Assembly (NCBI GenBank): GCA_021651055.1
Contig: JAJHOH010000001.1
Coordinates: 3,534,001-3,598,000 of the forward strand
Reading direction: 5' to 3'
Length of the DNA: 64,000 bases
Origin: Candidatus Manganitrophus morganii
GTDB taxonomy: Bacteria > Nitrospirota > Nitrospiria > SBBL01 > Manganitrophaceae
Shown here in pieces: positions 26,833-58,442 of the stretch. The position numbers and the translations under genes were made by a program. The notes beneath the pieces are model-generated. The model had not been told where the DNA came from and did not search any database. It saw only the letters and a program-made list of their open reading frames with translations. Each line of letters opens with the position of its first letter. The first letter of the stretch is position 1.

Positions 26833-26867
26833 GGCCCAGGAGTTCTTTCCCTTTGGCCTTTTTTTTT
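26833..26867 (+). terminator. Terminator after the Fic gene
   Basis: A weak GGCC...GGCC hairpin ends in a run of nine T, about ten bases after the Fic stop codon. The long T run makes an intrinsic terminator likely although the stem is poor. Confidence 0.5.
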
Positions 26868-26927
26868 CAGGATTCGGCGAGGGGAGCGCCGCCGGCGATA
26901 TCATTTCGCCATAATAGAATCCATATC

Positions 26928-27013
26928 TAAATAGCCCGAAGCCCGGGTGAATCGTCAAAGCCCTTCGGAGAATTCTTTCTCCCGAGGGCTTTTTTGTTTT
27001 CAGAAAGGAGGTG
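26928..27013 (+). promoter_or_regulatory. Leader element A: terminator hairpin just before a ribosome site
   Basis: Begins with TAAATAGCCCGAAG and leads to a 14-bp stem (arms AGCCCTTCGGAGAA and TTCTCCCGAGGGCT at 26959-26990, one mismatch, loop TTCT) followed by TTTTTTGTTTT. The ribosome site AAAGGAGGTG starts only a few bases later. Between T run and start codon there is no room for another promoter, so the gene at 27020 should depend on read-through of the hairpin. It shares sequence and layout with element B at 32138. Confidence 0.7.
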
Positions 27014-27019
27014 ATTTCG

Positions 27020-27169
27020 ATGAACTGTCCGAGGTGTCAGGGGCTGATCGGCAATGAGTTTGTCGCCACCCACGAAGGAAAATGTTTCTCCGTCTACTGC
27101 ATCATCTGTGGTTGGAGGCCGACGCGCGCTCCCTACCGGGCCACACCTTCAACCAAGAAGCGGGCTTAA
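27020..27169 (+). CDS. 49-residue zinc-ribbon-like protein
   Basis: A short frame with an excellent ribosome site (AAAGGAGGTG, seven bases before ATG). The product starts MNCPRCQG and later has YCIICGW, giving two CxxC pairs spaced like a small zinc ribbon, then a basic tail. Similar tiny zinc-ribbon proteins are common on mobile elements. Function unknown; perhaps nucleic-acid binding. Confidence 0.6.
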   Translation: MNCPRCQGLIGNEFVATHEGKCFSVYCIICGWRPTRAPYRATPSTKKRA

Positions 27170-27238
27170 AAGAAGCCGTTTCTTCCATCCGTCACCGAAC
27201 CATCCGTAAGCCGACAATCAAAAAGAGAGGAGAAGATC

Positions 27239-27388
27239 ATGAAGAGAATCACGGGCGGAGCCACGCGAGAAGAGGTCCTGTTCAGGGAAATGAAGAAAGC
27301 GCTTCCCTACATGGAGCGCGGAATCGATTGGAGCGATCTGAAGGATCACCGGCGGGAAATTCGAATCGACCGGGCCATGGGAAGGTAA
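27239..27388 (+). CDS. 49-residue charged protein, unknown
   Basis: Starts at ATG 27239 with GAGAGGAGAAG upstream and ends at TAA 27388. The product (KRITGGATREEVLFREMKKA, then DWSDLKDHRREIRIDRAMGR) is highly charged and mostly helical, with no motif I recognise. It sits in a row of codirectional small genes. Confidence 0.5.
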   Translation: MKRITGGATREEVLFREMKKALPYMERGIDWSDLKDHRREIRIDRAMGR

Positions 27389-27421
27389 GACTTAACGACC
27401 AACCAACGACAAGGAGGAGGA

Positions 27422-27736
27422 ATGAAGACCTATCAGAACATATTCCACGGCACGATCGCCTCGCTGCTGGTCATCAGTGGGATCGCTCTCGTTTCTACCC
27501 TGGCGATGTGTATCGGGGTGGGCGCGGGGATGATCCTGGGATATCCATCCGGTGTTTGGGCGAATCTGGGAGTCTCGGTGTTCGTGTTGGGGATCGCAGG
27601 CGCTCTCTTCGCGGGAATCTACCAGCTCGCCCAGAAGCTCTTTATCACCGCGATCGACTCTCCGGCGGATCATAAAGAAAGGGCGGTCGGAAAGGTCATC
27701 CAAATAAAAAGGGATCAACCAGCTCTAACTGATTGA
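27422..27736 (+). CDS. Small two-helix membrane protein, unknown
   Basis: 104 residues, ATG 27422 preceded by AAGGAGGAGG. Two long hydrophobic helices rich in Gly and Ala (about residues 10-40 and 47-70), then a charged cytoplasmic tail (ADHKERAVGKVIQIKRDQ). Its stop codon lies inside a hairpin. No family recognised. It may be an ICE membrane accessory factor. Confidence 0.6.
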   Translation: MKTYQNIFHGTIASLLVISGIALVSTLAMCIGVGAGMILGYPSGVWANLGVSVFVLGIAGALFAGIYQLAQKLFITAIDSPADHKERAVGKVIQIKRDQPALTD

Positions 27737-27742
27737 TCCCTT
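27709..27742 (+). terminator. Hairpin spanning the stop codon of the membrane gene
   Basis: A perfect 10-bp stem (AAGGGATCAA with TTGATCCCTT), extended by three more pairs after one mismatch, encloses the TGA at 27734-27736. No T run follows, so it may be an RNA 3'-end stabiliser or Rho-related signal rather than an intrinsic terminator. Confidence 0.4.
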
Positions 27743-27854
27743 CGAAGGTCCCTTATCGGGAGACGCTTCTATCTAACTGAGATCAGTCTATCGATTTGGG
27801 GCCTTCCTGTCAATTAAAAAAATCAACTCACCAAAACGACAAGGAGGAATACCC

Positions 27855-28022
27855 ATGAAGAAGAATCACGCTCGAGGAGGAAAATTTTTATCGACCTGGC
27901 AAGGAGAGGCCCCAAAAGGAAGAGACAGCTCACCATTGTGTTATCAGAGAGGTCAGAGAGAGGAAGACCGGCGTCTTCGGTATTCCTTGGATTCCGACGG
28001 CGCTCGGATCTGGAGTTTCTGA
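27855..28022 (+). CDS. 55-residue polar protein, unknown
   Basis: A short frame starting at ATG 27855 with AAGGAGGAAT upstream and ending at TGA 28022. The product is basic and polar (KKNHARGGKF, RGQREEDRRLRYSL) and looks disordered. The ribosome site is the main argument for it; no family is recognised. Confidence 0.4.
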   Translation: MKKNHARGGKFLSTWQGEAPKGRDSSPLCYQRGQREEDRRLRYSLDSDGARIWSF

Positions 28023-28075
28023 GGAGTTTTTGTCCGAAACATTTTTACCCCCCCTTTTAAACTAGGAGATCGACG

Positions 28076-28480
28076 ATGAGCAAGATTGAAATCAAGAAGC
28101 GTGAAGAGAGATTCAATCCCTGTTTTGCGGCCCTGAAGGGGCTTGTGGGGAACCCGTCCCAAAAGAGCCGTTCGGAAAGATATCTCGCCTGGAGGATGTC
28201 GGCCGGGTCCTACATGAAGCGGTTTGGACTTCGATACCGGGAGGCCGACCGGATCTCTACCTTCATCTATCAGGTCAACGGAGAAGAGGATACTTCTTTT
28301 CTTCGAGCGATGGAGATCTGGGTTCGGGAGGTCGCTTTGACGAAGGGATCGATCGGCGAGATCCTCGATGCGATCACGATCTTTCGGGTCTGCCTGATCG
28401 ATCCCGAAAGGATCGGCAGCTGCAAGAGGGCGCGCGCGGAAGTCGATCGTTATGTGAGATCCCGCTATAGCGCTTCCTGA
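28076..28480 (+). CDS. 134-residue protein, unknown
   Basis: ATG 28076 preceded by AGGAGATCGACG. A mainly helical soluble product with MSAGSYMKRFGLRYREADRI and EVALTKGSIGEILDAITIFR; no catalytic motif seen. It stands alone between small genes and a strong hairpin that separates it from the ribonucleotide reductase gene. Codon use resembles the ICE core. Confidence 0.6.
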   Translation: MSKIEIKKREERFNPCFAALKGLVGNPSQKSRSERYLAWRMSAGSYMKRFGLRYREADRISTFIYQVNGEEDTSFLRAMEIWVREVALTKGSIGEILDAITIFRVCLIDPERIGSCKRARAEVDRYVRSRYSAS

Positions 28481-28487
28481 CGCCGTG

Positions 28488-28523
28488 GGCGCAGGAGGAG
28501 GGGCTCCTCTTCCTGCGCCTTTT
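28488..28523 (+). terminator. Terminator after the 28076 gene
   Basis: A 13-bp GC-rich stem (GGCGCAGGAGGAG with CTCTTCCTGCGCC, one G-T pair) begins eight bases after the stop codon and is followed by TTTT. Good intrinsic terminator shape with a short T run. Confidence 0.65.
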
Positions 28524-28534
28524 GGAGGTATCCA

Positions 28535-28580
28535 TTTTGCGACACCCCTATTTGGAAAGATTTTAGGCCTTGTCGCAAAA
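28535..28580. promoter_or_regulatory. Inverted repeat upstream of nrdJ
   Basis: Perfect 10-base arms TTTTGCGACA and TGTCGCAAAA separated by 26 bases, ending about 100 bases before the nrdJ start. It could be an operator for a dimeric regulator or a long hairpin in the nrdJ leader. The spacer has no B12-box sequence, so it is not a cobalamin riboswitch. Confidence 0.45.
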
Positions 28581-28683
28581 ACAGGTCTGAAGGATGTTTT
28601 CTGCCATCGGCCGGCATAGAAGTTGCTCTGAGGGGAAAGCATGTGCATCAACCAACGGGATAAGAAAAACAGGAGTCAACCCA

Positions 28684-30975
28684 ATGCAGCAAGATATCAA
28701 ATACAATCCAAACGGAACGCTTTCAGGCAATGCGCTTCGAGTGCTCGAGAAGCGGTATCTGGCGAAGAACGAGGAAGGACAGGTGATCGAGACCCCGGAG
28801 GAACTCTTCCGGCGAGTCGCCCGGAATATCGCACAAGCCGATCGGTTCTATGATCCAGCGGCCGATGTGGAGGGGGTCTCCCAGGAATTTTTTGAAACGC
28901 TTTCGGAATTAAGATTTCTTCCGAACTCTCCCACGCTGATGAACGCCGGCCGGGATCTGCAGCAGTTGTCGGCCTGTTTTGTCCTTCCGGTGGAAGATTC
29001 GATGGAGGGGATCTTCGACGCGATCAAGCATACGGCGATCATACACAAGACCGGAGGCGGCACCGGCTTCTCCTTCAGCAGGCTTCGGCCGAAGAACGAC
29101 CTGGTCCGGACCACCGGAGGGGTCGCGTCAGGGCCAATCTCGTTCATGAAGGTTTTCAATCACGCCACGGAAGCGGTCAAGCAGGGAGGAACGCGCCGCG
29201 GCGCCAACATGGGAATCCTTCGGGTCGACCATCCAGATATCCTGGAGTTCATCCGCTGCAAGGAGGACACGAAAGAAATCACCAATTTCAATATCTCGGT
29301 CGCCGTCACGGACGCGTTTATGGAGACCTACAGGAAGGGAGAGGATTTCTTGTTGGTCAATCCAAGGACCAAAGAGGTGTTACAGAAAATCTCGGCCCGG
29401 GAAGTGATGGATCAGATCGCCCGTCAGGCCCATAAAACAGGAGAGCCGGGGATCTTCTTCATCGATCGCGCCAACCAGTCCAATCCGACGCCGCAGATTG
29501 GGGAGATCGAGGCGACCAATCCCTGTGGGGAGCAACCGCTCCTTCCTTACGAGAGTTGCAACCTGGGGAGCCTCAACCTGGAGCGGCATCTGGTTGCAGT
29601 CGACACCCTGGAATCAGTGGCGGGTGCGGGTGGTCAATATCGATTCGATTGGGCCGCCCTGGAGAAGAGCGTGAGGACCTCCGTCCACTTCCTGGACAAT
29701 GTGATCGACATGAACCGCTATCCGATCGAAGAGATCGAACGGATCACCAAAGCCAACCGGAAGATCGGGTTGGGAGTGATGGGCTTCGCCCGGATGCTCT
29801 TCAAGCTGGCGATCCCCTACAACTCAGAGAAAGGGATTGAGACGGCGAAAACGGTCATGAGCTTCATCCGGGAGATCGGCTACGATGAATCGGCCAAGCT
29901 GGCCGAGAAGCGCGGGGTCTATCCGAACTGGAAGGGATCTCTGCATGAAAAGCGGGGAGAGAAGGTACGGAACTCTTACGTCACCACAGTGGCGCCGACC
30001 GGAACGCTCTCGATGATCGCCGACGCCTCCGGAGGGTGTGAGCCGGAATTTTCGCTGATCTGGTACAAGAACGTCATGGGAGGAGATCATCTCGCGTACG
30101 TCCTCGACTACTTCGTCGAAGTGGCCAAGCGCGAGGGCTTTTGGACCGGTGACCTGCTCGATAAGATCGTGAAGAACAAAGGCTCGGTGCAGGGGATCGA
30201 TCAGGTCCCCCCGCATTGGCAGCGGGTCTTCGTCACCTCGCATGGGATCTCTCCCGAGTGGCATGTCCGGATGCAAGCGGCCTTTCAGGAGTTCTCCGAT
30301 TCCGCCGTCAGCAAAACGGTCAACCTCCCGTCGACGGCAACATGCGATGCGGTCAAGCAGGCGTATCAGTTGGCTTATGATCTCGGCTGCAAGGGAATCA
30401 CCGTCTATCGGGACGGGGCCCGGCTGGATCAGGTCATGAATGTCGGAGGTATTCCTCAAAATACCTCCGACATTAGGGAAGTGCCGGCGACAGAAAGTGG
30501 AAAAGAGGATCGGATGACATCGGAGCTTCCCGACCTCATTCCGGAGTTGAGGATCAAGGTCAAGACGAAACGAGGCAATTCCTATGTCCATGTCGGATTC
30601 CTGATTCAGGAGGAGAGCATGGCAGGGATCTTCGATATCCTGCGCTCTCAAGGGAGCATCCGGGAGCTTTTTCTCTCCCCCTCGCCGCATGTCAAAAACA
30701 GAGAGCTGCTCGACATGGTCTGCCGGCTGGGAAGCAAGCTGCTTCGATCGGGCGCGCCGATCGAGGAGGTGCTGGAGCAACTGGTGAAATCGAACGATCA
30801 ATTCGGTGAGATGACCTCCGATGCGTATGCCTTGATCAAAGGGTTGACGACGGTGGTTTCCCGGGTCCAGGAAGCCGCGGAGATGAGGCTTCCCTGTCCG
30901 GAATGCGGTGCCTCTTCGCTCCGGATACAGGAAGGATGTCTCCTCTGCGCCGCCTGTTCCTGGTCCAAATGCTGA
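28684..30975 (+). CDS. nrdJ: B12-dependent (class II) ribonucleotide reductase
   Basis: 763 residues; ATG 28684 is chosen because the N-terminus [20 protein letters not shown] is the usual NrdJ start. The catalytic barrel contains [36 protein letters not shown] and [21 protein letters not shown], the last holding the active-site Cys and Glu. The C-terminus ends in a zinc ribbon plus redox cysteines ([17 protein letters not shown]). It makes deoxyribonucleotides using adenosylcobalamin and works without oxygen. On an ICE it may supply dNTPs during transfer. A 14-bp perfect inverted repeat interrupts the region between barrel and C-terminal domain. Confidence 0.93.
30440..30473. repeat. Perfect 14-bp inverted repeat inside nrdJ
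   Basis: Arms ATGTCGGAGGTATT and AATACCTCCGACAT flank a six-base loop (CCTCAA). It encodes the linker after the catalytic barrel (residues near [12 protein letters not shown]). Such a perfect palindrome in coding sequence is unlikely by chance and may be an inserted hairpin or a binding site. Confidence 0.7.
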
Positions 30976-31028
30976 AGGGCCGATTGAAGGAAGCGACTTT
31001 ACTTTGTCGGTTTGATGGGAGGAAGTTC

Positions 31029-31226
31029 ATGGTAATGACCGATCGGGCGGGGCGTGTGAAGAAGAAAACGGATTCGGCCGGAAAGGATTCGGCCGGGAGG
31101 GCGCCCCTCGGGGTCTGCCCGCACTGCAAGGCGGGCGGCATCGACGGGGACCATCTGATCGTCGCCCTTTACTGGGATTCCAGCGACCGAGCCTTTCGCT
31201 GCGTTTATTGCGGATACTGGCAGTAA
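31029..31226 (+). CDS. 65-residue zinc-ribbon protein
   Basis: ATG 31029 has a strong GGGAGGAAG site; an alternative ATG at 30969 overlaps the nrdJ stop and would add 20 residues. The product has a basic N-terminus and CPHCKAGG with CVYCGYW near the end, a two-knuckle zinc ribbon. It directly follows nrdJ and is probably cotranscribed. Function unknown. Confidence 0.55.
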   Translation: MVMTDRAGRVKKKTDSAGKDSAGRAPLGVCPHCKAGGIDGDHLIVALYWDSSDRAFRCVYCGYWQ

Positions 31227-31266
31227 TGGGGAAACACGCCTGGCCGGAGGACCAGGGCAGAATCAT

Positions 31267-31295
31267 TTGACAGGGTCCGATCTGAATGATATGAT
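31267..31295 (+). promoter_or_regulatory. Sigma-70 promoter of the first toxin-antitoxin pair
   Basis: TTGACA (31267-31272), exactly 17 bases, then TATGAT (31290-31295). This is a near-consensus housekeeping promoter about 30 bases before the antitoxin ribosome site, overlapping the palindrome next to it. Confidence 0.8.
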
Positions 31296-31322
31296 TGCTA
31301 TGATTATAACAATTATAGCAAT
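31294..31322. promoter_or_regulatory. Palindromic operator of the first toxin-antitoxin pair
   Basis: A 29-base imperfect palindrome with outer arms ATTGCTAT and ATAGCAAT covers the expected transcription start. This is the expected place for a Phd/YefM antitoxin dimer to repress its own operon. Confidence 0.75.
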
Positions 31323-31334
31323 TGAGGAGGTCCG

Positions 31335-31613
31335 ATGATCAAGGAAGCAACGGCAATGACGGTGCGCAAGAATCTGGGTGAACTTATCAACGAAGTCCAG
31401 TACCGGCATGATTCCATTCTGGTTACCAAAGCTGGAAAACCGGTGGCAGCGATCGTGGACATCGAGCTGTTCAATAAAATGCGGGCGTTGGAATCGGAAT
31501 TCGACCGTCTGGTCGGCGGCTTACAGGAAGCCTTTAAAGGGGAGACGATCGAAACAGTCGAGAAAGAACTGCGCAAAGCCAAGACGGCGTCGGGCCGCCG
31601 CAGCCGTAAATGA
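31335..31613 (+). CDS. Phd/YefM-family antitoxin
   Basis: 92 residues from ATG 31335, with GAGGAGG upstream. The N-terminal fold (MTVRKNLGELINEVQYRHDS, then VTKAGKPVAAIVDIELF) is the Phd/YefM DNA-binding domain. The basic C-terminal tail would wrap the toxin. The stop overlaps the PIN gene start by four bases. It is expected to neutralise the toxin and repress the operon through the palindrome upstream. Confidence 0.88.
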   Translation: MIKEATAMTVRKNLGELINEVQYRHDSILVTKAGKPVAAIVDIELFNKMRALESEFDRLVGGLQEAFKGETIETVEKELRKAKTASGRRSRK

Positions 31614-32017
31614 GGGTCGTTCTAGACACCAATGTCCTCCTCTCCGGGTTGATCATCCCTGATAGTCTTCCCGGTCGTATTGTCCAGGCCTGGAGAGAGG
31701 CACGGTTCGACCTGGTTTTCTCCGAACAAATGCTGGAAGAAATCCGGAGGATTTTAGCCTATCCAAAAATCAACAAGAGATTGAAATGGGATGCAGAGGA
31801 AATTGAACGATTTCTCCTTTTGCTCCGCTTCAAATGTGTGATCACGACCCCCCCACCGATGAGCTTTGAAGATTTACGGGATCCGGATGACGCCGCTATT
31901 TTATCTGCGCTGATCGATTCCGGTGCCGAAGCGCTCGTCACGGGAGACGAAGATTTGCTGATCTTGGCAGGCCGATACCCGATCTTTTCTCCCGCCGAAT
32001 TCACCAGGCGTCTTTAA
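31610..32017 (+). CDS. PIN-domain toxin (COG1569 type)
   Basis: 135 residues. The start MRVVLDTNVLLSGLI carries the first acidic residue of the PIN active site; FSEQMLEEI holds the Glu; the C-terminal DPDDAAILSALIDSGAEALVTGDEDLL carries further Asp residues. PIN toxins are magnesium-dependent ribonucleases that often cut tRNA or rRNA. Paired with the upstream antitoxin, it likely stabilises the element. Confidence 0.88.
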   Translation: MRVVLDTNVLLSGLIIPDSLPGRIVQAWREARFDLVFSEQMLEEIRRILAYPKINKRLKWDAEEIERFLLLLRFKCVITTPPPMSFEDLRDPDDAAILSALIDSGAEALVTGDEDLLILAGRYPIFSPAEFTRRL

Positions 32018-32137
32018 CAAATAACTAAAATTCCAATCGAAACAAAATGCTCCGGGCTTGAGAGAACCGTCTTAAGTCCCTGTTGGATCAGTGAGGGGAA
32101 CACTGCCTGGCTGAAGTTTTGCCATGACTGAATGCTA

Positions 32138-32216
32138 TAAATAATCCGAAGATTGGATGTTAACCAAGCCCTTTGAAGGAATCCCTTTGAAGGGCTTTTT
32201 TATTTCAAAAGGAGGT
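32138..32216 (+). promoter_or_regulatory. Leader element B: terminator hairpin before the next gene
   Basis: Starts TAAATAATCCGAAG and contains a 13-bp stem (arms at 32167-32179 and 32184-32196, two G-T pairs, loop AATC) followed by TTTTTTATTT, then AAAAGGAGG. Both the front motif and the AAGCCCTT stem with its T run and ribosome site resemble element A at 26928, so they look like copies. A 10-codon frame (GTG 32226 to TGA 32258) could be a leader peptide coupled to the gene at 32261. Confidence 0.65.
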
Positions 32217-32260
32217 TCCAGGGCGGTGTACGAAGTGTGGTGGAAACGTGGGAGGTGACC

Positions 32261-32659
32261 ATGCAAGAACCGAGATCGAAACGATACCCGGACGAGATTC
32301 TCCATGATGCGAATTTCAGGCCGGCTCACCTACCTCTTGAAGAGAGGCTTCTGTCTTGCGCCATCAGCGATGCTGAGTTCAACGATTTTTTAAGAAGGGT
32401 CCATCCGAAACTCTACGAGCGGATGCGGGGCAAGCTCGATTCGGCGGCGCGGGACCTAAAAAGGCTCTATCGAAGACAACAAAACCGGGCGCTCTGTATC
32501 GAGGTCGAAAAGCTCGGCCTGGATCCCAATCAGCCCCTGCCGCGTGAATTGGCGGAACGGCACGAGGAAACGTTCAGCCTGCGTGTGAAGGAGCTTGAGA
32601 AATGGTTACGGGAAACCGTCTGTCCCATCTTTCAAAAGATCAGGAAGGAGGAGAATTGA
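32261..32659 (+). CDS. 132-residue charged helical protein, unknown
   Basis: ATG 32261 has GGGAGGTGACC directly upstream; in-frame GTG codons at 32237 and 32240 are less likely. The product is strongly charged and predicted mostly helical (RGKLDSAARDLKRLYRRQQN, then EETFSLRVKELEKWLRETV). No family recognised. Its TGA overlaps the TTG start of the next gene. Confidence 0.55.
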   Translation: MQEPRSKRYPDEILHDANFRPAHLPLEERLLSCAISDAEFNDFLRRVHPKLYERMRGKLDSAARDLKRLYRRQQNRALCIEVEKLGLDPNQPLPRELAERHEETFSLRVKELEKWLRETVCPIFQKIRKEEN

Positions 32660-34341
32660 AAAGAGATCTCAATCATCAAAACATCGTCATTCACTTATCG
32701 GACGCCGTCGCCGATGGGAAGGCCGATCTGCCGGCCGAGCCCGAATCGGTGTTAGGAGATCGCCTGCTGCCGACCTACGCGGGCGTCCTCCGGTCGGGGA
32801 TCAAGGTTCCGTACGAATCGGGAAAAAACGCGCTCACCGCGAAAGAGAGGACGCTTTTTGAAAAATGGACCTCGGAGGGGCGCTCTCCGCGCGAGATCGA
32901 AAAGGAGCTCAGGAAAGATCTGAGGCCGACGAATGTCCCGTATTTTTCGGTCTACCGGTCGGAGTGCAAAAACAATCCGGAGCATGCCGATTTAATCCGG
33001 ACGCTATATGCCAATGAGCGCGGAGAGATCGACCGGCTTCGGATCACCTTTCTGTCCGAGAAGTGGTGGGAGACGATTCCCCATAAGCTGATGGCTTTTC
33101 GTAAATCGGGTCTTTACTGCTCCTCGGAGCCGATCGAAGGCCGGTTGATCGCGACCCGGGATCCCGAAATGGAACAGGCGGGGGAGGGTAAAGAGAAACA
33201 TAAGAGGGAATTCAAGAGGAATAGAATCACACTCCCTTGCATCCCCGACGAGTGTCCGATCTATGCGGACAATGGTTGCCGCTTTTCAGGAGTGCTTCAC
33301 TTCATGATCCTGGGAGTGCCCGGAACCGACGTGTGGCGGCTGCCGACCACTTCCTGGTACTCGGTGAGAGGTATCAAAGAGAAGATCGACATGTTCCAAT
33401 CGGCGCTCGCAGCGAGGGGGCGGTCTATTGTTGGAATTCCGTTCGAACTCTTTAAATACGAAGCTGAGATCTCGCGTTGGGATCCTGCGAAAGGACGGGT
33501 CCGCTCCAAACAGTGGATCATCCGGATCGACTGCCCGGAGCTGCCGTTAGCGGATTTGATCGTCCAGAGCGCCGGCTTCGGATCGATCCAGAAACCGCAA
33601 GCCCTCTTGCCGGTAAATGGGACCAATGGCTCAGGATCACAGGGTGGGGCACTGCATGTGAGAAGGGCCACGGGAGGATCATCGAATATTCGGATATCCC
33701 AGGAGAAGGGACGGCCACCAGAAGAGGCCGAGGCGCCTGTGGCTGGGGCCACACTTCCCGTTTTTCCGCCTGATCTCTCGGCAGAGGGGAAAGCGACTTC
33801 GGAAAAGTCCAACGCGAATACAGATCATGAAAAGGGGGATGGAACACTGAATGTCAAGGAGGAGACGAAGGCTCCTCCCACGTCTCAAGGAAAAGAAGAG
33901 AAAGAAAAAGGAAGCACGGAACCGGCGTATCGCCCAGGGGAAGAAACGGTCCCTAGAGAAGAAATGACGCGTGAACAGTTACAGTCGGCGATCCTGGGCG
34001 AGGTACATCCGATCGGGAGCGTCCCTTTGAAGACGGTCCGGGATTACCTGAGTTCCGTCGGAAAAAAGCATTTCAAGGATCTGTCGATGGAGGAGGCGAA
34101 GGCTCTCCATCGGAAGGTTCTGAGCGCCAAGGCGGAAAGCACCGATGCAACCGGCGAGGGGAGAGCGAAAATTTGTTCGGCTTGTCCGGCGGAGATTGCC
34201 GTGGAGGTGGAACAATATTCCCTGAAGCGCTTCCGCCGGCCGCTCTGCCGGAGTTGTCAGGAGCAAGAGAAGGGCTCTCTTCCGAACCAGACGACCCCCC
34301 AGCGGAAAGCCCCGGGGCAGGTACCGGATGCCAAATTCTAA
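32656..34341 (+). CDS. RDF-like / metal-binding mobile-element protein
   Basis: 561 residues from TTG 32656, with AAGGAGGAGAA upstream and translational overlap (TTGA). The central part has CIPDECPIYADNGC and GVLHFMILGVPG, then TTSWYSVRGIKEKIDMFQSAL and GIPFELF. This arrangement resembles the phage recombination directionality factor-like family (gp3-like, PF18897), often annotated 'hydrolase or metal-binding protein' on ICEs. A low-complexity linker leads to a C-terminal zinc finger (CSACPAEI and CRSCQEQ). If truly an RDF it would steer excision; it may instead bind DNA in another role. Confidence 0.5.
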   Translation: MKRDLNHQNIVIHLSDAVADGKADLPAEPESVLGDRLLPTYAGVLRSGIKVPYESGKNALTAKERTLFEKWTSEGRSPREIEKELRKDLRPTNVPYFSVYRSECKNNPEHADLIRTLYANERGEIDRLRITFLSEKWWETIPHKLMAFRKSGLYCSSEPIEGRLIATRDPEMEQAGEGKEKHKREFKRNRITLPCIPDECPIYADNGCRFSGVLHFMILGVPGTDVWRLPTTSWYSVRGIKEKIDMFQSALAARGRSIVGIPFELFKYEAEISRWDPAKGRVRSKQWIIRIDCPELPLADLIVQSAGFGSIQKPQALLPVNGTNGSGSQGGALHVRRATGGSSNIRISQEKGRPPEEAEAPVAGATLPVFPPDLSAEGKATSEKSNANTDHEKGDGTLNVKEETKAPPTSQGKEEKEKGSTEPAYRPGEETVPREEMTREQLQSAILGEVHPIGSVPLKTVRDYLSSVGKKHFKDLSMEEAKALHRKVLSAKAESTDATGEGRAKICSACPAEIAVEVEQYSLKRFRRPLCRSCQEQEKGSLPNQTTPQRKAPGQVPDAKF

Positions 34342-34353
34342 AGCTTTAAGCGG

Positions 34354-34386
34354 GAGGCCCCGGATTCACTTCGGGGCCTCTTTTTT
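34354..34386 (+). terminator. Terminator hairpin 11 bases before the second primase
   Basis: A perfect 9-bp stem (GAGGCCCCG with CGGGGCCTC) followed by TTTTTT, then AGAGGAGGCGC and the ATG at 34398. The gap is only long enough for a ribosome site, so the downstream gene needs read-through. Confidence 0.8.
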
Positions 34387-34397
34387 AGAGGAGGCGC

Positions 34398-35384
34398 ATG
34401 GAGCTGAGAACGATTAAATCCATTCCGATCCTGGATGTTGCGGAAAGGCTTGAACTGAAAATCAGAGGCTGCTCGGCGCACTGTTTCGCGCATCAGCCGG
34501 ATCGAAACCCCTCTCTTCGATTTAACATCGAGAAGAACACCTTTCGCTGTTATGTCTGCCCGCAAGTCGGCGGGTCGGTGATCGACCTGGTGATGCAGGT
34601 ATTGAACGTCCCTTTTCATGAGGCATTGGAATATCTTTCCGGAAAGGGCGAGATAAAACGGTCGACGAGGAAGAGAATATCCGAAGGCCCGCTGCTTGGG
34701 ATGGAAGATAGGGACGAGATTCTTCGCGCCCTGTTGTCGGAAGCTCCCTTAGAGAAGGAAGGGATAAGTTACCTGGCGGGCAGAGGGATCGATATCGATA
34801 TCGCGCGGAAGATGGGGGTCGGATTCCTCCGGCCGGAAGATTATCGGAATCTCTTTTGGCGGATGAGCCGAAGATTTGGGCGAAGCCGCTTGAAAGCGGC
34901 GGGTCTGACCCGGTTCCATCTCTTCGCGAAAGAGGGCTTAAGCTTTATGCTCTTTCCGTATCGGCTGGAGGGACGCGTGCATACCATCAAGGGGCGCTGC
35001 CTTCTGACAAAAGCGGAGGCGAAGGAGCGCGGGGTCAGCCGGTTTGTCATGACGGAGAGGGCGCAGATCTTCTACAACCAGGAGATCTTGAAATCGACCC
35101 GGGACCTCTACCTTTGTGAGGGGGAGATCGACACGCTCACACTGCTACAGGCGGGGTATCCCACCGTCGGGATCCCGGGAACCGGGAGCTTCAAGGAGAG
35201 CTGGTTCGATCTGCTCATGGGGAAACGCGTTGTGCTCTGCCTGGATTCCGATCCCGCCGGATGTGAGGCGTCGGCCTATTTGGCGGAGGAATTCAGCAAG
35301 CGGGGGATCGCGCATCTGAAACTCGATCTTCCGAGTGGAAAAGACGTGAACGAATGTTACCTGGATGCGCCGTTACTGATGTGA
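34398..35384 (+). CDS. Second CHC2/TOPRIM primase
   Basis: 328 residues from ATG 34398. A compact zinc finger comes first (CSAHCFAHQPDRNPSLRF, then FRCYVCPQVGG), next a primase-like middle, then TOPRIM motifs LCEGEIDTLTL and VLCLDSDPAGCEA. It is far shorter than DnaG and lacks the helicase-interaction domain, like many plasmid and phage primases. It is followed twelve bases later by a UvrD-type helicase gene, suggesting a replication pair. Confidence 0.85.
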   Translation: MELRTIKSIPILDVAERLELKIRGCSAHCFAHQPDRNPSLRFNIEKNTFRCYVCPQVGGSVIDLVMQVLNVPFHEALEYLSGKGEIKRSTRKRISEGPLLGMEDRDEILRALLSEAPLEKEGISYLAGRGIDIDIARKMGVGFLRPEDYRNLFWRMSRRFGRSRLKAAGLTRFHLFAKEGLSFMLFPYRLEGRVHTIKGRCLLTKAEAKERGVSRFVMTERAQIFYNQEILKSTRDLYLCEGEIDTLTLLQAGYPTVGIPGTGSFKESWFDLLMGKRVVLCLDSDPAGCEASAYLAEEFSKRGIAHLKLDLPSGKDVNECYLDAPLLM

Positions 35385-38202: not shown

Positions 38203-38237
38203 AAATCAAGCGCCATAAATAACCAAGACATCCAAGG

Positions 38238-38277
38238 AGGTCCTGTGGAGTTTGTTCCCACAGGGCCTCTGCTTTTT
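38238..38277 (+). terminator. Hairpin upstream of the AAA gene
   Basis: An 11-bp stem (AGGTCCTGTGG with CCACAGGGCCT, one G-T pair) followed by CTGCTTTTT. An AAGGAGG sequence overlaps the 5' arm, so ribosome entry at the in-frame GTG 38245 would compete with hairpin folding. The nearby ATAAATAACCAAG upstream weakly resembles the front of leader elements A and B. Confidence 0.55.
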
Positions 38278-38307
38278 ATCGGTACGAATAAGAGGAGGAA
38301 GAGGCTT

Positions 38308-39738
38308 ATGCCTGAGTTCAAATCGTATCTTCGCGCGGGGTATCCCGCATTGTATGTCCGGACCGTGGAGCCTGACCGGGCCCGGGAGACGCTCAGCAAG
38401 GAAGCGTTGGAAGTGGAGGGGACGGCGGTCTGCTGGGATGTCCTTTCCGGAATCAAAGACATGAACGGGCAGTGTATTTCGGAGAATTCCGATCCGTTAT
38501 CGCCGCTGACGTGGCTGAAGGAGGCATCCGAGAATACGATCCTCTTTCTGTGGAACTTTCACAAATTTCTGAATTCCGTCGAAGTGATTCAGGCCATCCA
38601 GAACGGCATCCATGAATGGAAAGGAGAGGGAAAATCGCTTGTCGTGCTGGCTCCGCAGGTTCAGATTCCGGTGGAGCTCGATCGGATCTTTACGGTGATC
38701 GAGTTCTCGCTCCCGAATCGAGAAACAATCCAAAGTATTCTCTCGGACGTGGTCGGATCTTCCGGGCTTTTGATGCCGGAACACGCGGAGGCGTTGTTGG
38801 ATGCGGCCACCGGCCTGACCACGTTCGAGGCGGAGAACGTTTTCGCCCTCTCGGCGATCGATCCCAGGCCGTTCTCATGCTCGGTTGTATCGACGCAGAA
38901 GGCGCAGATGGTGATGAAGAACGCCTCGCTTGAGATTTTCTACGCAGCCGATCGGTTCGACACCCTGGGGGGGTTGGACCGGCTGAAGGAGTTTGCCTTG
39001 AAGATCGCAGGCTCCCCCCTGGCGCGGGGGCTGCTTCTGCTGGGCGTGCCCGGATGCGGCAAAAGCCATTTTGCCAAGGTCTTGGGTGGAGAGCTCTCGA
39101 TTCCGACGCTCTCTCTGAATTTCGGCCGGCTCTTCGGATCGTTGGTGGGAGAGTCGGAGGAGCGAATGCGACAGGCGTTGTCAGTCGCCGACGCCATGGC
39201 GCCGTGCATCCTCATGCTCGATGAGATCGACAAAGGATTGTCGGGCGCGAATTCTTCTCATCAGTCGGATGGCGGGGTCGGATCGCGGATCTTCGGAACG
39301 TTTTTGACCTGGCTGAATGACCACACAACCCAGGTGTTCGTGGTGGCGACGACAAATAATATCGCGCATCTTCCCCCGGAATTTCTTCGGGCGGAGCGAT
39401 GGGACGCCATCTTCTTCGTCGATCTTCCCACGCCGGAGGAGAGGGAGGCGATTCTGAATATCCACGCGGCGGAATACGGGATTGAGCCGGTGGGCGTGCC
39501 GGATCTGTCCGCCTGGTCGGGGGCGGAGATCCGATCGCTCTGCCGGATTGCGGCGATGACGAAAAGCACCCTGATCGAGGCCGCGCGTTATGTCGTGCCG
39601 CTGTCCCGGAGCATGGGGGAGAAGCTCGCCGAGCTGAGGGAGTGGGCGAAGAGCCGGACGCTGCCTGCTTCCTCCCCGCAGAGATCTTCACTCTCCCGCA
39701 GAATCAGCGCCAAACCGGCCGAAGGGGGCGCAAACTAA
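38308..39738 (+). CDS. AAA+ ATPase, Ycf46-like
   Basis: 476 residues; ATG 38308 is preferred because SYLRAGYPALYVRTVEPDRA is a typical Ycf46 N-terminus and AAGAGGAGGAAGAGG precedes it. Walker A is GVPGCGKS (about residue 247), Walker B ILMLDEIDK (about 302), and sensor 1 VVATTNN, followed by an arginine-finger region FLRAERWDAIFFV. The N-terminal ~230 residues are a degenerate second ATPase-like domain. Its neighbours, DUF1257 and DUF2997 proteins, are the same set found together in cyanobacteria and some phages, so they likely form one complex of unknown purpose. Confidence 0.82.
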   Translation: MPEFKSYLRAGYPALYVRTVEPDRARETLSKEALEVEGTAVCWDVLSGIKDMNGQCISENSDPLSPLTWLKEASENTILFLWNFHKFLNSVEVIQAIQNGIHEWKGEGKSLVVLAPQVQIPVELDRIFTVIEFSLPNRETIQSILSDVVGSSGLLMPEHAEALLDAATGLTTFEAENVFALSAIDPRPFSCSVVSTQKAQMVMKNASLEIFYAADRFDTLGGLDRLKEFALKIAGSPLARGLLLLGVPGCGKSHFAKVLGGELSIPTLSLNFGRLFGSLVGESEERMRQALSVADAMAPCILMLDEIDKGLSGANSSHQSDGGVGSRIFGTFLTWLNDHTTQVFVVATTNNIAHLPPEFLRAERWDAIFFVDLPTPEEREAILNIHAAEYGIEPVGVPDLSAWSGAEIRSLCRIAAMTKSTLIEAARYVVPLSRSMGEKLAELREWAKSRTLPASSPQRSSLSRRISAKPAEGGAN

Positions 39739-46027: not shown

Positions 46028-46044
46028 GAAACCAGGAAGGTCAA

Positions 46045-46088
46045 AGAGGGGCTCTCTTCGTCAACACGAGGAGGGCCCCTCTTTTTTT
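46045..46088 (+). terminator. Strong terminator 11 bases before the 46100 gene
   Basis: A 17-bp stem with two G-T pairs (46045-46061 pairing with 46066-46082, loop CAAC) and T run at 46082-46088. The ribosome site AAGGAGACGTC fills the space to ATG 46100. As with the other hairpins, no independent promoter fits in between. Confidence 0.85.
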
Positions 46089-46099
46089 AAGGAGACGTC

Positions 46100-47269
46100 A
46101 TGGAAGTGAAATTCCGATACGAATTGACGAGCCGGATGGGATGCAATCTATATGAGGCTCTGAGGGAAGAGGATTTCGACAGGATCACCGAAGGTGAGAC
46201 CGAATACTATCGCGAGCAGTCGGAGGTCGGATGTGAGATCCGGAAACCCTTTGTAGAATGGCTCGAAGGACATCTTCCTGCGCGGGATTGGCGGGAAATC
46301 AAAGAGGGAATCGGATGCGATGATCTCTCAAAATGGTTGTTGGAGAATCCGGTCCCCGAACGGGACGAAGATTTAAGGAGAACATATTCGGAAAAGGAGA
46401 TCGAATTTCTAACAACGACACAGACGAAGACCAAAAGCGGCATCCATCTGCCCCTGTTGTGGGATCATATCGATCCCGACGATGACGCCGACGTGGCGCT
46501 CGGTTTCGGCCTTATCACCTATCCTCCGGTAGATGAGAGCGGCCGGTATATTCAGAGCGGAAACAGCCGGCATCTTCCGGCCGATATCGCAAACCGGATC
46601 AAAGCGTGGATGGAGGAGGCCAACGAACTGGCAAGAAAGACCGGCCGCGGCGTCGGATCTCCTGATCCGAAGGATGACCTGGACCGAGCCATCGACGAGA
46701 AAGTAGCCTCCCTTTATCGGGAGGCCTCGTGTTTATCGGAGAAGACCGTGCTGTCCCTCATTCGGATAGAGGGATTTTATTGCGGGATTCACGGAGGAAC
46801 TGTGAAATATGAACGACCCATCCTGAGATCGGAGGTGTTGGCCTGCCCTTCCTGCAATCATCCGGTCTGCCCGTTCTGTGCCAACTGTTACGAGAAGGAT
46901 CCGGCGACGATCGAGGAGGCGAGGGCGTATCTGGCCTCCTGTGATGAGGTCTCAGGAATGGCCTATTGCGGGCATTGCGGGGATTGGGGTGTGGAATGGA
47001 TGCTTCGGTTCCTGCGATTAAAGTGCTGTCCCATCCCGCCGGAATACGAGAATCACCAGCCGGCGGCGAGATCCGTGCGGTTCGTCGCCACCAACACCGT
47101 TGCCGCCTTGCCGGACTGTCATCTCATCCTGGAATCGGTGTCCCGGAGCTTCGCAAAAGGGATCTCGGGAATCATTCACTATCCGCATTCCACGGGAGAG
47201 ATCTGGGGCATTCCGGAGAGACACCCTGAAGGATGGATTGTGACCCTCTGCTATCCGGAGGAGCGATGA
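46100..47269 (+). CDS. 389-residue protein with Cys-rich zinc region, unknown
   Basis: ATG 46100. The N-terminal half is charged and helical. From about residue 215 come many Cys and His: YCGIHGG, LACPSCNHPVCPFCANCYEKD, YCGHCGDWG, suggesting two zinc-ribbon or treble-clef sites. The C-terminus is alpha/beta (GISGIIHYPHSTGEIWGIP). No family recognised. Its stop overlaps the next start. Confidence 0.6.
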   Translation: MEVKFRYELTSRMGCNLYEALREEDFDRITEGETEYYREQSEVGCEIRKPFVEWLEGHLPARDWREIKEGIGCDDLSKWLLENPVPERDEDLRRTYSEKEIEFLTTTQTKTKSGIHLPLLWDHIDPDDDADVALGFGLITYPPVDESGRYIQSGNSRHLPADIANRIKAWMEEANELARKTGRGVGSPDPKDDLDRAIDEKVASLYREASCLSEKTVLSLIRIEGFYCGIHGGTVKYERPILRSEVLACPSCNHPVCPFCANCYEKDPATIEEARAYLASCDEVSGMAYCGHCGDWGVEWMLRFLRLKCCPIPPEYENHQPAARSVRFVATNTVAALPDCHLILESVSRSFAKGISGIIHYPHSTGEIWGIPERHPEGWIVTLCYPEER

Positions 47270-58340: not shown

Positions 58341-58359
58341 GAGATTTTTGTTCTCGAAA

Positions 58360-58393
58360 AGGGGTCCCCCGGTTGGGGGGCCTCTTTTTTTTT
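58360..58393 (+). terminator. Terminator after the large helicase
   Basis: An 11-bp GC-rich stem (AGGGGTCCCCC with GGGGGGCCTCT, two G-T pairs, loop GGTT) followed by eight T. Strong intrinsic terminator ending the last large ICE operon. Confidence 0.88.
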
Positions 58394-58442
58394 GCCTTTT
58401 TTCCCGGGCATGTTTGCCGAAATCATCTAAGGGAGGAATATA

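Follow-up and report, generated by a model that had tools for sequence, protein, structure and literature searches.

A structured leader RNA beside a predicted terminator in PRTRC-type mobile elements of Candidatus Manganitrophaceae: a candidate for termination control

We analyzed 64,000 nucleotides of Candidatus Manganitrophus morganii DNA (assembly GCA_021651055.1, contig JAJHOH010000001.1, positions 3,534,001 to 3,598,000; hereafter the window, whose own numbering is used throughout), in which two structured leader elements, copies a and b, stand before small genes of a mobile element. The window belongs to a 4.29 Mb single-contig genome, 98% complete. Its 26-59 kb region encodes the PRTRC-type proteins PRTRC_E, ubiquitin-like, E2-like, JAB and ThiF, all above the Pfam cut-off, and a ParB that matches PRTRC_parB of NCBIfam at E 9e-70, yet stays under the curated cut-off of that family. 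RadC, AAA+, DUF3150, ribonucleotide reductase, a Gp3-like protein, a primase and a UvrD helicase are also encoded there, while genes for TraG and a coupling protein lie to the left. Among named relatives, those nearest to the region are a Manganitrophaceae metagenome-assembled genome (L134) and Ca. Manganitrophus plasmids (Nitrospirota, Troglogloeales, in their record). Plasmids CP114554, CP114559 and CP114562 have a gene order similar to that of the window element, and the annotation of CP114559 names PRTRC A, B, C and ThiF. Judged by gene content, the host of the leaders is a PRTRC-type mobile element of a plasmid or integrative and conjugative element (ICE) family. A search for direct repeats marking the element ends found none, Cupriavidus and Burkholderia plasmids with Gp3-like matches differ from the window element in gene order, and a query with the primase returned no viral relatives.

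Each leader consists of a folded part of about 80 nt, predicted to form a three-way junction (P1-P3) and a hairpin (P4), followed by a strong predicted intrinsic terminator and a Shine-Dalgarno (SD)-like sequence. In copy a, on the + strand, the folded part spans 26867-26950. Its three-way junction (26870-26922) comprises P1 (26870-26875 with 26917-26922), P2 (26876-26893, loop AGGGGAGCGC) and P3 (26894-26910); P4 (26934-26948, GCCCG-AAGCC-CGGGT) lies 3' of an A/U-rich linker, TAAATA. The predicted terminator (26957-26995, -21.8 kcal/mol, T6) is followed by the SD and gene of a 49-amino acid (aa) zinc-ribbon protein, ZnR (27005-27169, ATG 27020). Copy b, on the same strand, has its folded part at 32082-32160: a diverged P1-P3 part that retains the loop GGGGA (32082-32135), found by a model not trained on b, and P4 (32144-32158, AUCCG-AAGAU-UGGAU). 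Its predicted terminator (32166-32201, -20.0 kcal/mol, T6) precedes an SD-like AAAAGGAGG and a conserved 10-codon open reading frame (ORF), MYEVWWKRGR, with a GTG start at 32226 (together 32207-32258). This ORF (32226-32258) overlaps the SD of a 140-aa gene with an ATG at 32261. The same layout is found in L194 and L186, where the peptide differs by one residue and is identical, respectively.

The initial annotation had noted two terminator-containing leaders here, and both were recovered with the AAATA-NNCCGAAG motif, the AAGCCCTT...AGGGCTTTTTT hairpin and an SD-like AGGAG behind the T run (at +10 in copy a and +8 in copy b). Their extent had to be revised, since the block that relatives share upstream of the genes for ZnR and the 140-aa protein begins some 60 nt 5' of the first-noted start, at 26867 and 32082. 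In relatives' alignments the block reads GGATTC - GGCR-AGGGGARCGC-YGCC - GGCGG..loop..CCGCC - TTAATA - GAATCC, and continues with an A/U-rich linker (often TAAATA), P4 as NNCCG-AAGNN-YGGNN, the AAGCCCTT..AGGGCTTTTTT terminator and the SD-like sequence. As to the genes behind the leaders, the zinc-ribbon protein was correctly placed behind copy a, but in copy b AAAAGGAGG precedes the 10-codon ORF, and the most probable start of the charged 140-aa protein is ATG 32261, which has an SD of its own.

The strict motif AAATANNCCGAAGNNNGG occurs three times in the 4.29 Mb genome and not at all in a reversed control; its third occurrence lies inside a 155-aa ORF, on the opposite strand. A covariance model, R1, was built from six leaders, with copy a as a training sequence and copy b deliberately excluded (L159 and L177 were also left out, MAFFT having shifted their P4 by one). 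Copy b is recovered by R1 at 32082-32160, scoring 30 bits (E = 2.2e-4 in an unfiltered search of the window; E = 0.015 over the whole genome), and the next match in the window, at E = 1.3, overlaps copy a on the opposite strand. Because a model made without b finds b, sequence and structure comparison identifies a and b as related elements. A proposed third relative at about 38214 did not hold up: an unfiltered R1 search allowing E up to 10 gives no match there, and no fold is predicted for the 31 nt preceding the hairpin. The hairpin at this site is instead a predicted terminator before an SD, one of five such junctions described below.

Searching related elements with covariance models, as the initial annotation had suggested, revealed a conserved leader with some covariation: R1 marks 13 places in 6 of the 18 genomes of the order, and a second model, R2, made from all 13 copies, recovers the same places. 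The six genomes are all among the nine of the order that carry the element's Gp3-like gene, against none of the nine others (Fisher p = 0.0045). Eleven places share a contig with the Gp3-like gene, on its strand and 1-33 kb away, and the remaining two are on a 10.8 kb contig, taken as L134's, with a ribonucleotide reductase like that of the window. In a phylum-wide sample of 395 genomes, searched with stricter filters and drawn so that not all genomes of the genus were included, matches at E up to 0.01 came from three, each of them a member of this order. Within the genomes searched, the P1-P4 leader thus occurs only beside one PRTRC-type plasmid/ICE family. L176, L194 and L186 have P4 and the terminator, with P1-P3 unrecognized by R1 up to E = 1; with R2, L176 reaches no better than E = 1.1 and L186 no better than 4.7.

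Rfam had no family at gathering score on the leaders in the window; permissive scans returned nothing up to E = 5 at eight loci bearing related leaders, and for copy a only matches far under family cut-offs. Phages gave no leader match, and 3 of 72,556 plasmid records did, all Ca. Manganitrophus. On viral contigs a loose pattern hit at least 120 stretches; among 100 pattern matches in them (with a slightly narrower gap) nine had a pairable P4 and none looked leader-like by eye, and two narrower patterns yielded one hit (no model match at E up to 1) and none. A pattern search of genome contigs gave 10 loci, of which by eye only L134 is a leader. Among the papers listed in searches on PRTRC, Manganitrophus plasmids and antitermination, none, judged from titles, describes a P1-P4 RNA.

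The first reading of the two copies held that the stems keep pairing through G-T changes. Pairing is kept, but the changes go beyond G-T: P4 includes one full C-G to U-A change, and across 12 leaders six terminator pairs are altered on both sides. In an alignment of the 13 P1-P4 copies fitted to the covariance model, 94.6% of cells are paired, against 92.7 in shuffles, and pairing drops to at most 53% once partners are slid; 5 of 20 pairs are changed on both sides (two in P2, two in P3, one in P4), a count reached in 1 of 500 shuffles. A MAFFT alignment of P4 and terminator from 12 leaders (L145, whose hairpin is of another kind, was excluded) has 7 of 20 pairs changed on both sides (2/500 shuffles), one in P4 and six in the terminator, and 92.5% pairing against 68% in the best slid version. 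Such compensatory changes favour the predicted RNA structures P2, P3 and P4 as well as the terminator. RNAfold alone gives P1-P2-P3-P4-terminator in 7 of 10 full leaders (a, L134, L170, L158, L177, L172 and L207). The P2 loop GGGGA is invariant in all 13 copies, b included; the A preceding it is changed in the two copies before Uma2 genes.

Two antiterminator pairings were also considered. For CCGAAG:CTTCGG, 88.2% of cells are paired with no both-side change, a level of pairing equalled or exceeded in all 500 shuffles. In 10/10 leaders the P2 loop (GGGG) can pair with the terminator arm (CCCT) over 4-6 pairs, but both sides hardly vary, making the test uninformative.

In 12 of 13 leaders examined the SD-like sequence starts 8-11 nt after the T run, and in 8 of 12 (a, L134, L157, L170, L158, L159, L172 and L176) it is the SD of ZnR. 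In these ZnR copies the gap is too short for a promoter, so only read-through can reach ZnR; the SD-like sequence of b, L194 and L186 instead precedes the conserved 10-codon ORF. ZnR is also the commonest gene behind P1-P4 (8 of 13 copies). Besides b, before the 140-aa gene, the exceptions are L207, before a 49-aa gene that in the window follows ZnR, the second copies of L200 and L201 (near-identical), before a Uma2 gene, and L214, before an antitoxin region. The terminator is kept in 10 of the 13. At one locus (G297:C282) the 140-aa gene immediately follows a P4-terminator leader and ZnR, and for this reason copy b may derive from a ZnR leader by loss of ZnR. ZnR itself has 49 aa in the window and 49-69 aa across the set, with two CxxC motifs and no match in Pfam, PHROG or NCBIfam; by position alone it is a candidate partner of P1-P4. 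At L214, a stretch behind P4 (L214:1584-1840, G296:C1) weakly resembles a group II intron model (13.3 bits against a cut-off of 49), and a Phd-like antitoxin gene, named by eye, follows it.

Terminators before ribosome sites recur along the gene run. With cut-offs of -17 kcal/mol and an SD core at most 15 nt away, regardless of a start codon, the + strand between 25.9 and 58.5 kb has six strong terminators, five of them with an SD core in range (26957, 32166, 34352, 38236 and 46043), while the minus strand of the same region has one, without SD. In a chromosome sample of 400 kb (both strands), 2 of 41 strong terminators stand before an SD, compared with the 5 of 6 here (Fisher p = 8e-5). An earlier form of the test (-11 kcal/mol; SD, start codon and ORF) gave 4/9 against 9/211. 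Beyond the two leaders, these predicted terminators, all on the + strand, lie right before the SD and start of the primase gene (34352-34400), before the SD and start of an AAA+ ATPase gene (38236-38312, not of the P1-P4 family), and directly before an SD and ATG 46100 (46043-46102); in L200-L202 the homologous gene, too, is preceded by a similar hairpin. The sixth (58358-58395) follows the last of these + strand genes and has no SD behind it.

The hairpin at the primase start is kept at that junction in related elements: a strong hairpin precedes the gene in 24 of 24 Gp3-like/primase loci examined, several of which overlap. A T run is present in most, absent from L142, its overlapping locus L218 and L144, and poor in L146 and L147. 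Within the window this hairpin (34341-34400) belongs to a junction at which a hairpin is kept though primases are about 50% identical and stem sequences differ strongly.

The initial annotation had proposed a mobile-element-specific attenuator or antitermination target. Its first half is borne out by a structured leader found, in the genomes searched, only beside this element family, with conservation and some compensatory change in related elements and read-through needed for the ZnR copies; the attenuator or antitermination role stays a prediction. We consider it somewhat probable that the leader is a cis-acting structured RNA of a PRTRC-type integrative or plasmid element of Ca. Manganitrophaceae that controls termination. 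Transcription from upstream would make the P1-P4 RNA and then meet a strong intrinsic terminator in the 5' untranslated region (UTR) of a small gene, which ancestrally was probably znR. By default polymerase would stop there. If P1-P4 were engaged, whether by a protein or ligand reading the P2 loop (invariant GGGGA) and hairpin P4 or directly by polymerase, polymerase would read through into znR and the following genes. We infer terminator activity, its control by P1-P4, and the direction and signal of that control. The homology of the copies, their structure, their occurrence only beside this element family in the genomes searched and the proximity of terminator and SD at znR, with no room for a promoter, come from direct comparison; a leader RNA deciding read-through of the adjoining terminator would be their simplest account.

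Other means of control were considered. A promoter reading of TAAATA-CCGAAG is unlikely, as L172 and L157 retain P4 but have an altered TAAATA, and P3 loop length is too variable for a fixed -35/-10 spacing. Antitermination by a NusG paralogue (RfaH or LoaP type) is likewise unlikely; a single NusG-family protein (PF02357, E <= 0.001) was found in the genome, and it lies outside the window. As regards a leader-peptide attenuator, reading alignments A1 and A2 by eye gave no common start codon in P1-P4.

Several observations weigh against control of termination by P1-P4. P1 shows no compensatory change, the count of pair types in the P1-P4 alignment is ordinary (74 of 500 shuffles as high), and the sequences in both alignments are related and the shuffle controls lenient, which overstates the support. 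Copies b, L157 and L194 do not fold alone into P1-P3 with RNAfold, fold z-scores of P1-P4 against shuffles are modest (-0.4 to -2.3 in eight leaders), and the two candidate antiterminator pairings are without covariation support as aligned here. Three of 13 copies (the near-identical Uma2 pair and L214) have no such terminator. Where the gene behind the leader is not ZnR, there may be room for a promoter: the distance from the T run to the start of the main gene is 60 nt in copy b, and that to the probable start of the 49-aa gene is about 85-90 nt in L207. Two genomes, G139 and G254, have the element and terminator-SD junctions with no detectable P1-P4, and in a third, G295 (72% complete), the junction hairpin lacks a T run and P1-P4 is likewise missing; P1-P4 is therefore not needed for the terminator-SD layout. 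Finally, the cut-offs of the junction control were fixed after a first look, relaxing a rule that b had failed.

Among rival explanations, the one that survives best, although still unlikely, is that these are ordinary terminators serving the cassette genes upstream, that leaky read-through accounts for expression of the gene behind, and that P1-P4 is a passenger or a short regulatory RNA ending at the T run. The leader terminator is indeed of the normal intrinsic type, and the copies that go without it fit this explanation. Against it stand the 8-11 nt between T run and SD-like sequence in 12 of 13 leaders, a layout rare in the chromosome sample, and a further terminator-like hairpin seen by eye just 5' of P1 in L134, L158, L159, L172, L207 and others, at which an upstream transcript would already end. 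More doubtful is the view that the hairpins are mainly 5'-UTR hairpins with a U-rich tract, protecting mRNA ends or aiding ribosome loading at operon junctions. The Gp3-like/primase hairpins with no T run or a poor one speak for it, but the other loci at that junction do have a T run, as do 12 of 12 leaders in the P4-terminator alignment, albeit a short one in L172 (TTT then CTGC). That P1-P4 is a DNA site for cassette recombination or protein binding between accessory genes, rather than an RNA, is improbable: the copies do precede differing accessory genes (ZnR, Uma2, the 49-aa protein, the antitoxin region) and the P1 arms form a nearly invariant inverted repeat, but the strand is that of the Gp3-like gene in 11/11 matches on contigs holding it, P2, P3 and P4 show compensatory changes, and similarity continues via P4 and the terminator to the SD.

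Control of termination by the leader RNA has parallels in layout, the closest known systems being canT of Tn916, conAn of pLS20 and put of HK022; the likeness is one of layout and description, not of compared sequence, and we claim no membership. As the cited account has it, canT is probably a cis-acting RNA that lets polymerase pass element-internal intrinsic terminators (PMC11658703). The leader resembles it as an RNA of a conjugative element with such terminators, whereas canT activity was tested on a 452-bp fragment in a Gram-positive host, and the leader is predicted, about 84 nt long and in most copies adjoins a terminator of its own (PMC11658703 for canT). The large conjugation operon of pLS20, as reviewed, has many internal intrinsic terminators and opens with the RNA conAn2 and the protein ConAn1 (PMC8955417). 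An RNA plus, usually, a small zinc-ribbon gene recalls that pair; in contrast to our leaders, pLS20 is Gram-positive and the role of ConAn1 was experimentally tested, that of ZnR being a guess (PMC8955417 for pLS20). The same review, in the part bearing on this, counts intrinsic terminators inside an operon as a good sign of an antitermination system (PMC8955417). The put RNA of HK022 is described as a structured RNA of about 70 nt, in two copies per genome, that acts on termination (PMC9378689). Short size, structure, a mobile-element origin and two copies per genome are shared with our predicted leader, but put consists of two stem-loops whose binding to RNA polymerase was seen by cryo-EM (PMC9378689). 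Riboswitch and attenuator leaders in Rfam likewise place an aptamer-like fold before an intrinsic terminator in the 5' UTR, yet differ in that none of their families matches our leaders at gathering score.

Leader a lies upstream of several predicted same-strand intrinsic terminators, as expected of RNA-based processive antitermination of the put, canT or conAn type. By analogy, P1-P4 and ZnR might together make up a bipartite system for processive antitermination in the PRTRC elements of Nitrospirota, in which polymerases that had transcribed P1-P4 would pass the terminator-SD junctions of the approximately 30 kb run while stray transcripts stopped at the first. We regard this extension as speculative and rather unlikely.

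Some features of these elements fall outside this argument. A ribonucleotide reductase gene lies inside the element (28594-30975), and a similar gene on CP114554 is annotated as vitamin B12-dependent. Also within the element, the minus strand has a strong terminator-like hairpin at 27708-27743. The Ca. Manganitrophus GAC1 plasmid CP114554 carries a fluoride riboswitch on its minus strand (L200:24041-24126).

The leader is a predicted structured RNA with no Rfam match, found among the genomes searched only beside one plasmid/ICE family in the order of Ca. Manganitrophus, and it adjoins a gene run punctuated by predicted terminators right before ribosome sites. It offers short, testable parts. 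If it does control termination, antitermination by element-encoded RNA, known in conjugative elements of Gram-positives and in a lambdoid phage, would have a counterpart in another phylum; were the bipartite system also real, conAn, canT and put would gain an RNA-based counterpart beyond Gram-positives and lambdoid phages.

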